DNA of 39,269 nucleotides. It comes from Bacillota bacterium (GTDB lineage: Bacteria > Bacillota > Dehalobacteriia > UBA4068 > UBA4997). The translations under genes were made by a program, and so were the position numbers. Shown piece after piece: positions 2,783 through 39,269 of the stretch (its first letter is position 1; each line of letters starts with the position of its first letter). The notes beneath the pieces were generated by a model. It was not told the DNA's origin. It was given only the letters and a program-made list of their open reading frames with translations, and made no database searches. Location of the stretch: NCBI GenBank assembly GCA_021769035.1, contig JAETTP010000020.1:1-39269 (forward strand). Direction: 5' to 3'.

Positions 2783-5579
2783 ATTGATTATCAGCGCGAT
2801 TGGCCCTTACGCGGACGAGCCGCTGGAGATTGATTTCAACCAATTTGCCGGCAAGGGGTTGTTTTTGATTTCCGGCGATACGGGGGCCGGCAAAACCACT
2901 ATTTTTGACGCAATTTGCTTTGCGCTTTATGGGGCGACCAGCGGCCAGTATCGGGATACCAAAAACCTGCGCAGTCAGTATGCCAGCCCTGGCACGACCA
3001 GCTACGTGGATTTTTATTTCAGCCACCAGGGGGAGGAATATCACATTTACCGGCAGCCGGGCTATCTGCGGCTTAAGCAGCGGGGCGAGGGCCTAATTGA
3101 AGAGAAAGAAAAGGCGGTGTTTTACCAAGGGACGGAGCCGCCGGTGGAGGGGCTTAATCAGGTGCGGGCGCGGGTGGAGGATTTACTGAAAATTAACTTC
3201 GACCAGTTTAAGCAGATTGCTATGATTGCCCAGGGCGAATTTTGGCGGCTGCTAAACGCCACCACCCCGGAGCGGACGGAAATATTGCGCACTATTTTTA
3301 TGACAGAGCGCTACCAGCGTTTGGAGCAATGCCTGCGGGAGCGGCGCAACGCCGGGCTGGCGGAAAAAAAACGGCTGGAAAACAGCGTGGTGCAGTACTT
3401 CAACGAGGCCGCGGCCGGCCCGCAAAGTGAGCTGGCAGAAGATTTGGTAGCCTTGCAGACACAGGCGGCGCAAAGTGGCAGCGCCTGGAATGTAGAGGCA
3501 ATGCTGGATTTGCTGCAAAAGCTGATTGATGAGGACAAGGTGCAAGCGAAAATGATCCAGGCCGATTTGCAGGCGGCTAATCAGCTTTTGGACGAGCGAA
3601 AGAAAGCCTTGCACGAGGCGCAGACCAATAACCAACTGCTGGAGCGGTTGGCCGAGCACCAGAACAGGCAGCGGCAGTTGGCTGCGCAAAAAGAGGATAT
3701 GGAGGAGCGGGCCCGCTTGCTGCTACGTCAAAAAGCGGCGTTGCGGGAGGTGCAGCCGGCCTATCAGCGTTGGCAGGAAGCGCAGGAACTGGTTGGTAAC
3801 ACAGCGGCGGCGATTGAGCGGCAAAAGTATTCTTTGGCGCAGGCGGAAGCGGCGCAGCGGCAAGCGACGGCGATTTTAGGGCCGGAGCAGTTGCAGCAGG
3901 CGGCGGCTTGGCTGGCGGAAAGCCAACACAAGCAGAAAGAATGGGGCCGGGTTGCCGGGGAGCTGAAAGAACTGTTGCAGCAGGTTATTCCGGCTTATAA
4001 CACCGCCAAAGGGAATTTGCAACAAAGGCAGCTGCATTTTCAGGCGGCGCAAGGTAAATATAATCAACTGGACGGAGAATATAAGCGGCAGGAGCAGATT
4101 TTGGAAAACTGTCGGGCGGGTATTTTGGCCCAAACGCTGGCGGTCGGTCAGCCCTGCCCGGTTTGCGGCTCCACCCAGCACCCCGGCCCGGCCCAGCTGC
4201 CGGCGGAGGCGGTGACGGAGGCGGATTTGGAGCGGAGCAAGGCCGCCTTGGAGCAGGCGCGGCAGACCAAGGAAAAGCTGCTGACGGAGGCGGAAAAGGC
4301 CAAGGGGATTTTGCAGAAGCAGGGCGAGCAGCTGAAACAGCAGGTGTTAAATGCGCTGGCCGAGGTCGGCCAGGCCCAGCCTGAAGAGGCGGCCAATGGG
4401 GAGAACCTTACGGCCCGGTTGCAGCAGGCGGCCCAGAAAATTAACGCCGAAATTCAGGCGGAACAGCAGCAACAGCAGCAGCTGGGCCAAAAGTGCCTGG
4501 CTTATATTGAGGCGGCTCAGCAGAAGAAGCCCTCGGCGCGGCCCGGCAGCGTTAAGCAGGCGATTGAGCTGGCCCAGCAGGCGGCAGCCGCGGTGCAGGC
4601 TAGCCAGGCTGAGCTGGCCGGCAGCTTAAAAACCTTGCAGGAAAATCTGAACAATCAGCAGGCGGAGGCGGCAAAATTGCAAGCCCAATTTGCAGTGGCT
4701 CTGCAAGAAAAGGAATTTGCGGACGAGGCGGAATTTAAAAGTCTGCTGACCACAGAAGCGGCAATCGGCCGGCAGGAGGAGCAAATCAATCAATATCGGC
4801 AGGCGGTGCAGACCAATCGGGAGCAGCTGGCCCAGGCGGCAGAGGACGCCAAAGGGCGCGCTTTGGTTGACGAGGCGGCTTTGCTGCGGCAGGTGCAGGA
4901 ACAGGCCGGGCAGGCGGCTAAATTGCAGGAGGAAAACAGTCTGTTTAAGGCGCGTTTGGCTCAAAACGGCCGCCTGCGGCAGAAAATTGCGGAGCAGGAA
5001 ACGCCGCTGGCCGCAGCTAACCGGGAAAGTGAGCTTTGCAGCCGGCTTTACAACCTAATCAGCGGCAACGTCAGCGAAAAAACTAAAATCACCTTTGAGC
5101 AGTATATTCAGGCGGCCGGCTTTGATAATATTATTGCGGCGGCCAACCGGCGGCTGCTGCCGATGAGCGACGGCCAGTTTGAGCTGTTCCGCCGGCAGGA
5201 GGCGGGCAACAAGCGCAGCAAGGCCGGCCTGGATTTGGAGGTGCAGGACAACTTCACCGGGCAGCGGCGGCCTGTCGGCAACCTTTCCGGCGGGGAGAGC
5301 TTTAAGGCTTCTTTAAGCCTGGCTTTGGGCCTTTCCGACACAGTGGCCGGCGATTTGGGCGGCGTGCAGATGGACGTGCTGTTTGTGGACGAGGGCTTTG
5401 GCACGCTGGACCGCAAGTCGATTGAAAACGCGCTGGAAATTCTGCTTAGCTTATCCGGCGCCAACAAGCTGGTGGGGATTATCAGCCACCGGGAGGAGCT
5501 GGTGGAGAGTATCCCGCAGCAAATCCGGGTGCGCAAATCCAAAAGGGGCAGCAGCATTGAGATTGATACGGGCTTTTAA
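2769..5579 (+). CDS. sbcC: exonuclease SbcC (Rad50-type ATPase subunit)
   Basis: This 936-aa SMC-like ATPase pairs with SbcD. Walker A is GDTGAGKT (residues 36-43). Two long Gln/Ala-rich coiled-coil arms flank a zinc hook, CPVC (about 463-466), which joins two molecules. The ABC signature LSGGES (about 839) and Walker B VLFVDEGFGTLD (about 875) follow at the C terminus. The longer frame can be read from 2700, but ATG 2769 is preferred: it gives the family's MKPIKLIISAIGPY opening and has GGAGAGG 11 nt upstream, inside sbcD. The 14-nt overlap with sbcD indicates coupled translation. The arms are extremely Gln/Ala-rich, which is usual for coiled coils. Confidence 0.95.
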   Translation: MKPIKLIISAIGPYADEPLEIDFNQFAGKGLFLISGDTGAGKTTIFDAICFALYGATSGQYRDTKNLRSQYASPGTTSYVDFYFSHQGEEYHIYRQPGYLRLKQRGEGLIEEKEKAVFYQGTEPPVEGLNQVRARVEDLLKINFDQFKQIAMIAQGEFWRLLNATTPERTEILRTIFMTERYQRLEQCLRERRNAGLAEKKRLENSVVQYFNEAAAGPQSELAEDLVALQTQAAQSGSAWNVEAMLDLLQKLIDEDKVQAKMIQADLQAANQLLDERKKALHEAQTNNQLLERLAEHQNRQRQLAAQKEDMEERARLLLRQKAALREVQPAYQRWQEAQELVGNTAAAIERQKYSLAQAEAAQRQATAILGPEQLQQAAAWLAESQHKQKEWGRVAGELKELLQQVIPAYNTAKGNLQQRQLHFQAAQGKYNQLDGEYKRQEQILENCRAGILAQTLAVGQPCPVCGSTQHPGPAQLPAEAVTEADLERSKAALEQARQTKEKLLTEAEKAKGILQKQGEQLKQQVLNALAEVGQAQPEEAANGENLTARLQQAAQKINAEIQAEQQQQQQLGQKCLAYIEAAQQKKPSARPGSVKQAIELAQQAAAAVQASQAELAGSLKTLQENLNNQQAEAAKLQAQFAVALQEKEFADEAEFKSLLTTEAAIGRQEEQINQYRQAVQTNREQLAQAAEDAKGRALVDEAALLRQVQEQAGQAAKLQEENSLFKARLAQNGRLRQKIAEQETPLAAANRESELCSRLYNLISGNVSEKTKITFEQYIQAAGFDNIIAAANRRLLPMSDGQFELFRRQEAGNKRSKAGLDLEVQDNFTGQRRPVGNLSGGESFKASLSLALGLSDTVAGDLGGVQMDVLFVDEGFGTLDRKSIENALEILLSLSGANKLVGIISHREELVESIPQQIRVRKSKRGSSIEIDTGF

Positions 5580-5595
5580 ATCCAAAAATAGCCGC

Positions 5596-5624
5596 TTGAC
5601 ATTTGGCTGTGGATTTTATATAAT
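5596..5624 (+). promoter_or_regulatory. perfect SigA promoter for antisense RNA, module 1
   Basis: TTGACA (5596-5601), 17 bp and TATAAT (5619-5624) have no ORF of any size behind them. The transcript would run head-on into the small ORF on the minus strand. Confidence 0.85.
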
Positions 5625-5630
5625 ATAAAT

Positions 5631-5721
5631 GAAAAGAGCCAACAGCTTTTTAAGCGGTTAGCCCTCAGCAGTTATTTAGAAAATAACCGCCGCTCTGTGG
5701 AATTTGGGGCGGTTATTTTTT
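5631..5721 (+). ncRNA. putative antitoxin antisense RNA, module 1 (about 90 nt)
   Basis: The RNA would start about 7 nt after the -10 box and end at a hairpin, AATAACCGCC (5682-5691) against GGCGGTTATT (5708-5717), followed by T5. It is complementary to the last codons and 3' UTR of the 27-codon ORF on the other strand. Its 5' part carries GCGGTTAGCCCTCAG (5654-5668), recurring near-identically in the small ORF's own leader. Expression and function are inferred from layout. Confidence 0.65.
5682..5721. terminator. shared bidirectional hairpin, module 1
   Basis: The 10-bp stem AATAACCGCC/GGCGGTTATT has T5 on the plus side and A/T-rich sequence ending in TTTTCT on the minus side. It would end both the antisense RNA and the small-ORF mRNA. 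Confidence 0.7.
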
Positions 5722-5796
5722 ATTGCGAAAGTTTAAAAGTAACCCTGCAAAATCTACTAACAAAATTAAAAGTGTTAAAACTTCTAATGTTGTCAT
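5713..5796 (-). CDS. 27-aa hydrophobic peptide, putative holin-like type I toxin
   Basis: ATG at 5796 follows a perfect SD (AAGGAGGTGA, 7 nt spacing). The peptide begins MTTLEVLTLLILLVDFAGLL and ends LNFRNKK: one short membrane segment with a basic tail. This is the form of the small 'holin-like' type I toxins of Bacillota, whose B. subtilis relatives (TxpA, BsrG, BsrE) also open with M(S/T)xxxxLxxM-type sequences. The mRNA leader is about 120 nt, contains TAGTCCTCAG preceded by GCGGT, and has a small hairpin (CACTTA/TAAGTG) just before the SD. A convergent RNA overlaps its 3' end. The gene lies between sbcC and glnS. Toxicity is inferred; the peptide is new to me. Confidence 0.7.
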   Translation of the reverse strand: MTTLEVLTLLILLVDFAGLLLNFRNKK

Positions 5797-5922
5797 AGAA
5801 TCACCTCCTTAGACACTTATGTAAGTGATAAGAAGGCTTAGCCCTCTCTCACTCCTCCTTTACATCGAGAATTTGACTGAGGACTAACCGCCGTTTGAAA
5901 GAGTCAGCTCTTTCCAGCTTTT

Positions 5923-5951
5923 ATTTTAGCATTTTTTGTTGAAAAAAGCAA
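5923..5951 (-). promoter_or_regulatory. promoter of the module 1 small ORF
   Basis: On the minus strand TTGCTT (5946-5951), 17 bp and TAAAAT (5923-5928). The -35 box lies within the T-run side of the glnS terminator hairpin. Confidence 0.55.
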
Positions 5952-38932: not shown

Positions 38933-38961
38933 TTGACAAAATTGATTGCATAGGTTAAAAT
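38933..38961 (+). promoter_or_regulatory. promoter for antisense RNA, module 2
   Basis: TTGACA (38933-38938), 17-bp spacer, TAAAAT (38956-38961). Confidence 0.8.
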
Positions 38962-38967
38962 ATAAAT

Positions 38968-39050
38968 AGTAAGGCACCACAGATAAGCGGTTAGCCTAAG
39001 TGGAAATTTTTATTAACAAAATCGTCACTGTGGCTTAGTGGCGATTTTTT
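38968..39050 (+). ncRNA. putative antitoxin antisense RNA, module 2 (about 80 nt)
   Basis: The RNA starts about 7 nt after the -10 box, carries GCGGTTAGCC (38987-38996), and ends at AATCGTCACT (39020-39029) paired with AGTGGCGATT (39037-39046) then T4. It overlaps the last five codons of the opposing small ORF. The arrangement is the same as in module 1. Confidence 0.62.
39019..39050. terminator. shared hairpin, module 2
   Basis: AATCGTCACT/AGTGGCGATT with one G-U pair and a 7-nt loop; T-run on the plus strand. On the minus strand T is fewer, and the stronger stop at 38865-38908 lies beyond. Confidence 0.7.
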
Positions 39051-39118
39051 CTATGTGTAAGTCGTATCTCAATACTAATCGTAAAACGACCAATATGAAA
39101 AGTCAATCTTACTGGCAT
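39035..39118 (-). CDS. 27-aa basic amphipathic peptide of module 2
   Basis: ATG 39118 follows AAAGGGGGTGAGG. The peptide begins MPVRLTFHIGRFTISIEIRL and ends THRKNRH: alternating hydrophobic residues and a basic tail rather than a classical membrane helix. It has exactly the same length (27 codons), orientation, convergent RNA and GCGGTTAGCC repeats as module 1. The leader can fold ACCCC onto the GGGGT of its SD. By analogy it is a type I toxin-like gene, but the peptide itself is unlike the known hydrophobic toxins, so an unrelated regulatory peptide is possible. Confidence 0.6.
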   Translation of the reverse strand: MPVRLTFHIGRFTISIEIRLTHRKNRH

Positions 39119-39170
39119 AGTGCCTCACCCCCTTTCGTTCTTAATGGGGTTTGTTGGCTAACCGCCTACC

Positions 39171-39199
39171 GTTTTAAGTGAACACTTAGCGATTTGCAA
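39171..39199 (-). promoter_or_regulatory. promoter of the module 2 small ORF
   Basis: On the minus strand TTGCAA (39194-39199), 17 bp, TAAAAC (39171-39176), giving a leader of about 45 nt. The last 70 bases of the window hold no gene I can support; CACTTAGC (about 39183) and GCTTAGTG (about 39230) form a loose inverted repeat. Confidence 0.55.
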
Positions 39200-39269
39200 G
39201 CCTGAGCATAGCGAAAGGCGAAGCAAGAGCTTAGTGTGAACAAATATCGCAGGTGTAATTTATAACGAG

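Follow-up and report, generated by a model that had tools for sequence, protein, structure and literature searches.

Between sbcC and glnS of a Bacillota bacterium lies what is probably a type I toxin-antitoxin-like module, in which the mRNA of a short peptide is opposed by an antisense RNA that would lock it in trans through a copy of the mRNA's own leader. The module is real at the level of the DNA sequence, from which alone the antisense gene is known, and the short opposing RNA probably silences the peptide. Copies of the same RNA framework are numerous in the genus and, as compared below, carry at least two unrelated peptides, probably more; the peptide part of the module looks exchangeable. 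The window is the whole 39,269-nucleotide stretch of DNA that was analyzed, and its copy of the module is a clean insert between these two housekeeping genes, with junctions accurate to a few bases (Table 1).

Table 1. Features of the module in the window (positions in the window unless a locus is named).
Feature	Position	Strand	Remark
Insertion unit, 371 bp	5579..5949		Delimited by comparison with the closest relative, G006
ORF of the 27-aa peptide MTTLEVLTLLILLVDFAGLLLNFRNKK	5713..5796	-	Previously unannotated
Shine-Dalgarno (SD) AAGGAGG	5804..5810	-	
SD-sealing hairpin (L3:SD), 9 bp	5803..5837	-	L3:SD helix also in the consensus fold
L2 GAGGGCTAA	5838..5846	-	Partner of leader L1 in the predicted fold of the mRNA
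L1, mRNA leader GGCGGTTAGTCCTCAG	5877..5892	-	Conserved in class A
Predicted mRNA promoter TTGCTT-N17-TAAAAT	5923..5951	-	Extended -10
Predicted toxin mRNA, ~235 nt	5680..5915	-	Ends at the shared hairpin; both ends predicted
Antisense RNA promoter TTGACA-N17-TATAAT	5596..5624	+	12/12 consensus
Predicted antisense (antitoxin-like) RNA, ~90 nt	5631..5722	+	5' hairpin and terminator hairpin; covariance model R1
L1', leader copy within the antisense RNA, GCGGTTAGCCCTCAG	5654..5668	+	
Bidirectional terminator hairpin	5680..5721	both	Common to both RNAs
~80-bp palindromic repeat	L055:440-530; L013:20-110; L053:1120-1250; window 39180-39260		

The sequence elements named by the original prediction, namely a minus-strand 27-codon ORF with a strong SD, a perfect promoter firing towards it, a shared bidirectional hairpin and a 14/15-nt inverted repeat, are all present. 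For the promoter, shuffles of the region lead one to expect ~1.1 sites at the far laxer threshold of 9/12; the antisense promoter scores 12/12 in eight of ten class A copies, and the mRNA promoter 8-10/12. The hairpin folds at -20.3 kcal/mol on the plus strand and -15.1 on the minus strand (z ~-5 on both) and is the only long stretch over which the two predicted RNAs are fully complementary; the peptide's stop codon lies inside its stem, which is also where the other complete class A copies have theirs. The inverted repeat (GCGGTTAGYCCTCAG, 5654-5668 against 5877-5891) proved to be the core of a longer similarity of ~36 nt (AAAGAG...CCTCAG), equaled in none of 500 shuffles. Further features had no place in that prediction: the mRNA promoter, which overlaps part of the glnS terminator, the sealed SD and a helix between two parts of the leader. 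The leader of the window copy folds far better than shuffles (z -4.0), and in the predicted fold L1 (TTAGTCCTC, within 5877-5892) forms a 9-bp helix with L2, while the SD is held in a 9-bp hairpin.

The peptide belongs to a family, here class A (MsFlEVsaLLxLLiavaDFaixHxxKK), with a conserved E5 and a Lys-rich tail, and is predicted to be of membrane type. A four-member profile, searched against this 2.2-Mb genome and eight other members of the genus, found eight copies in this genome, some truncated, and further copies in three of the eight others (G001, G006 and G007). Another copy occurs in G057, and another is held by two named MAGs annotated Clostridiales/Oscillospiraceae. By its codon changes the peptide is under purifying selection, most coding differences between copies being synonymous: 12 synonymous against two nonsynonymous changes separate G6_C44 from G6_C36 (both in G006), eight against none separate the MAG copies L051 and L052 (P=0.0007), and three against none the orthologues C48 and G6_C36; C25_46k and G6_C28 differ by one and two, an uninformative pair. 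No family in Pfam or NCBIfam exceeded its cut-off for any class A member, Rfam gave no match at this locus at gathering or E-value thresholds, and phage, plasmid and viral collections held no match to the peptide, which is too short for such searches to be highly sensitive.

The antisense RNA was followed with a covariance model (R1) built from nine copies. Raw matches number 26 in this genome, 14 in G006, 11 in G007 and four in G001, and a handful of weaker matches come from G002 and G004; since the terminator is palindromic, some of all these matches are the same place on the opposite strand. In the 37 distinct sequences compared, pairing is possible in 93.6% of cells, and both sides have changed in 45 cells (≤11 in slid controls), and covariation reaches 0.263 against at most 0.068 in slid controls; the alignment (A9) was fitted to the model, yet shuffles and slid controls remain far below it. 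The pattern of substitutions makes this look like a genuine structured RNA. Of 249 genomes sampled from the phylum, none in another genus matched the model; within the genus it uncovered modules missed by the class A peptide search, including another peptide family. The existence of paralogues, purifying selection on the peptide and covariation in the antisense RNA back the proposal that this is an unannotated module of the type I toxin-antitoxin-like kind, with an RNA opposing the peptide and a terminator shared by both transcripts.

The inverted repeat was originally taken to join the 5' leader of the mRNA to its own 3' end. For this the mRNA would read through the hairpin, and the antisense RNA would displace the end-to-end fold. 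In nearly all copies L1 is indeed predicted to pair strongly with a read-through 3' end (the window copy at -49.5 kcal/mol), but such pairing is an automatic consequence of an inverted repeat. Leader differences within class A are mostly G-U-tolerant (43 against 9), a bias that reflects a few shared sites and falls to 17:13 outside class A; with so few independent sites, the asymmetry was discarded as proof of end-to-end folding. Moreover, the mRNA-strand hairpin (z -5.0, with a U-rich 3' arm and tail) should terminate the mRNA just past the stop codon. The terminated transcript would then not include the downstream repeat arm, and its expected length is ~235 nt rather than the ~280 nt that presume read-through. 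We consider end-to-end folding unlikely.

A leader copy explains the repeat better: the antisense RNA would start with a same-sense copy of the mRNA's ~35-nt leader rather than with its complement. Across 17 loci, which took in Hol_Tox loci, G057, the two MAG loci (individually weak) and class B, the copy is specific to its cognate leader (score 514 against 324.8 when permuted, sd 22.4; 0/5000), and the result holds with one locus per clade (306 against 178.6; 0/5000). Class D and E leader copies are likewise cognate-specific (284 against 203.4; 0/10000). The similarity ends at the predicted start sites, with a mean z of 8.2 in the leader against 1.0 upstream.

These data suggest a scheme for the toxin-antitoxin-like module in which we infer transcription, toxicity, the lock in trans and duplex decay. 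A weaker promoter would yield the ~235-nt mRNA encoding the 27-aa membrane peptide, and a consensus promoter on the opposite side the ~90-nt antisense RNA, both RNAs ending in one bidirectional hairpin. The mRNA would be made with its SD already sealed, L1 pairing with L2 and L3 with the SD; leader removal activates some type I mRNAs, and that it does so here is a guess. The antisense RNA would first contact its own mRNA through the complementary terminator hairpins, and predicted pairing is stronger for cognate (-77 to -81 kcal/mol) than for non-cognate partners (-42 to -59). Its 5' part would then replace L1 at L2 beside the SD, restoring the lock in trans, after which the duplex would presumably be degraded. 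L2 is complementary to the antisense leader over 9 nt, and where L1 forms a G-U pair with L2, its copy in the antisense RNA (TTAGCCCTC) would form a G-C pair. This replacement is nevertheless the least certain part of the mechanism, because direct energetic support for it is weak: the 9-nt complement in the window copy beats shuffles only weakly (58/1000), and pairing of the antisense leader with the 5'UTR stands at 1/30 in the window copy and varies in others. The L1:L2 pairs are mostly invariant, which leaves covariation support thin, and the leader copy sits in the 3' arm of a hairpin that must open first. A heteroduplex between the two leaders, L1 with L1', is a possibility suggested by weak pairing (746/20000; Fisher 0.001). 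Pairing of L1 with the 5' arm of the terminator, as a 5'-3' lock, was rejected (947/20000 permutations, against 1418/20000 for a control segment).

An unrelated peptide, class D (e.g. MFWLSIAALFMQTIQLVLQAVEFILNHGKQK), stands opposite several of the antisense matches, with three copies in this genome, five in G006, seven in G007 and one in G001. Overall, classes A and D are 73-85% identical in leader and antisense RNA and ~50% in codons 1-22. In G007, the identity between class A copy C115 and class D copy C32 is 84% in the 5'UTR and again 84% in the terminator and antisense leader, against 49% in codons 1-22, 78% in the last codons and 54-55% in the promoters, which lie outside; the corresponding values for the G006 pair C28/C47 are 80% (5'UTR), 84% (terminator and antisense leader), 49% (codons 1-22) and 89% (last codons). 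As the regulatory parts are highly alike and codons 1-22 only ~49% identical, the membrane segment appears to have been swapped inside a retained framework. Tentatively, and with some doubt, we suggest that the toxins of this type I antitoxin framework are interchangeable. The antisense RNA, through its same-sense leader copy, would stand in for the leader in trans, so that the RNA pair would be independent of peptide sequence; recombination would exchange the membrane segment (codons 1-22) without touching either regulatory RNA, and one genus would come to have several unrelated peptides.

Other peptides sit on comparable frames. Class B, on a similar frame with GCGGTTAGCC in both leaders, gives 13 profile matches in this genome, of which two are weak. 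One class B module lies in the window at 38933-39170, with MPVRLTFHIGRFTISIEIRLTHRKNRH at 39038-39118(-), GCGGTTAGCC-type sequence in both leaders and an opposing promoter-like TTGACA...TTAAAAT beginning near 38933(+); the hydrophobicity of the class B peptide is alternating rather than continuous, and it has no Pfam or NCBIfam match. A further peptide, class E (MSIENFVGILSLCLTSFSIGYLLGNKK), occupies the same kind of frame in G002 (L158:300-470), an otherwise module-poor genome.

Peptides and antisense RNAs differ in how often they stand alone. Every strong class A or D peptide match adjoins an antisense match (class D copies not all having been inspected one by one for this pairing), except C48:15378, which lacks an SD or leader, and G006:C43, which is truncated where its contig ends. 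In this genome, by contrast, about eight of the antisense copies face no intact peptide. Antisense RNAs of this kind (L142, L143, L144, L145, L147, L155, L017 and L011) may be solo antitoxins or remnants; a few hundred bases downstream of L017 is a gene resembling groES. An interspersed ~80-bp palindromic repeat (GTGAACACTTAGCGA...GCTTAGTGTGAAC) is seen next to or inside several modules, and in copy C60 (L055) it interrupts the peptide ORF. That peptides are nearly always accompanied by an antisense RNA, while antisense-only copies exist, is the bias in decay that one would expect of a peptide that did harm when its RNA was missing. The product could instead be an antisense-regulated small membrane protein that is no toxin, e.g. 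a signaling or stress peptide, given that toxicity is only predicted and that a peptide with a conserved E5 and a Lys-rich tail matches no family. At least two unrelated peptide types on one framework, the high copy number and the antisense-only remnants all fit toxins better, and we regard a non-toxic role as improbable.

The module behaves as a unit of gain and loss. In the closest relative, G006 (GlnS 97% identical), the flanks are kept and the glnS-sbcC gap is 6 nt against 371 bp in the window. Absence of the ORF between conserved flanks had been named as grounds for abandoning the original prediction; it is literally what G006 displays, but it is not refuting, because the module comes and goes as a unit and has intact orthologues and paralogues elsewhere. 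Orthologous copies hold their position in two species (L053/L058, L015/L057, L055/L056). Class C modules (e.g. MNILFSIATAIVANIISYYICKWLDSRRR) lie downstream of glnS in G001 and G007, where the window has class A; therefore, the sbcC-glnS gap repeatedly accepts small modules. Multiple copies and clean presence or absence at one site would also suit a MITE-like mobile element, with the inverted repeats as terminal repeats and the ORF incidental, but this is highly improbable: the repeat begins at the predicted RNA start sites rather than at the insert ends, which show neither terminal inverted repeats nor a target duplication, three relatives carry the copy inside the antisense RNA behind a separate hairpin, the ORF is under purifying selection, and the orthologous pairs stay in place.

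Type I modules are hard to annotate, their peptides being tiny and their RNAs unknown. A literature search turned up no account of type I systems with a leader copy or swapped toxins, a negative that counts as weak evidence that none exists. On sequence grounds, what appears to be new is that the antisense RNA carries a leader copy and that peptides are exchanged on one framework. Hol_Tox (PF16935) loci of related genomes (L074, L075, L077 and L078) also have an antisense RNA with a same-sense leader copy, of which we know of no report. The likeness extends to the short MxxxE...K-rich peptide, 44% identical pairwise to a member from G028, whose Hol_Tox loci have a convergent antisense RNA, a shared hairpin and the leader copy. 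Profile-profile comparison gives a probability of 76%, with a mixed shuffle control. The profile search originally suggested for this holin-like family gave no match for the window peptide; no peptide of its family passes the curated cut-off and this genome has no PF16935 match, and by that cut-off the module is not Hol_Tox.

The likeness to TxpA/RatA originally drawn is borne out for a hydrophobic-peptide mRNA converging with an antisense RNA, overlapping 3' ends and a sequestered SD, features also of BsrG/SR4 and BsrE/SR5, but not for the predicted dimensions. In the B. subtilis pairs the overlap is ~114-120 nt (~120 nt for RatA/txpA) and the antisense RNAs are 163-222 nt long (PMC7430163), whereas here the predicted overlap is one hairpin of ~40 nt, its ends placed from the hairpin position, and the predicted antisense RNA is ~90 nt.

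The nearest architecture, and by sequence the most similar predicted working, is rather that of Fst/par (RNA I/RNA II of pAD1; Fst/Ldr superfamily), with convergent promoters, a short antisense RNA, one bidirectional terminator that serves as contact site, an SD-sealing mRNA stem and a short hydrophobic peptide with a charged tail (PMC7472228), all of which have counterparts here. The direct repeats of par make its antisense RNA complementary to the start site; class A, class B and Hol_Tox loci lack them and have instead an inverted, same-sense leader copy. Such repeats (DRa/DRb) reach only 9 nt in the window copy (58/1000), with nothing significant in the other class A, B and Hol_Tox copies, and profile search gave no match of the window peptide to the Fst/Ldr family; judged by repeats and peptide, the module is not a member of Fst/par. 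The test is able to detect repeats, since it recovers near-perfect par-type direct repeats across SD and start codon in its positive controls, class C loci of this genus (0/1000 shuffles). Class C Ldr/Fst-like modules lie at L117:560-870, L118:250-900 and L021:130-420; a sister class C peptide has a weak Ldr_toxin match below cut-off (E=0.012). Class C loci, which occupy the same intergenic position in sister species and possess true direct repeats, are a natural comparison for the window module. If the leader copy of the window module acts in trans, the antitoxin logic would be unlike that of par's direct repeats, and would explain how toxins can be exchanged.
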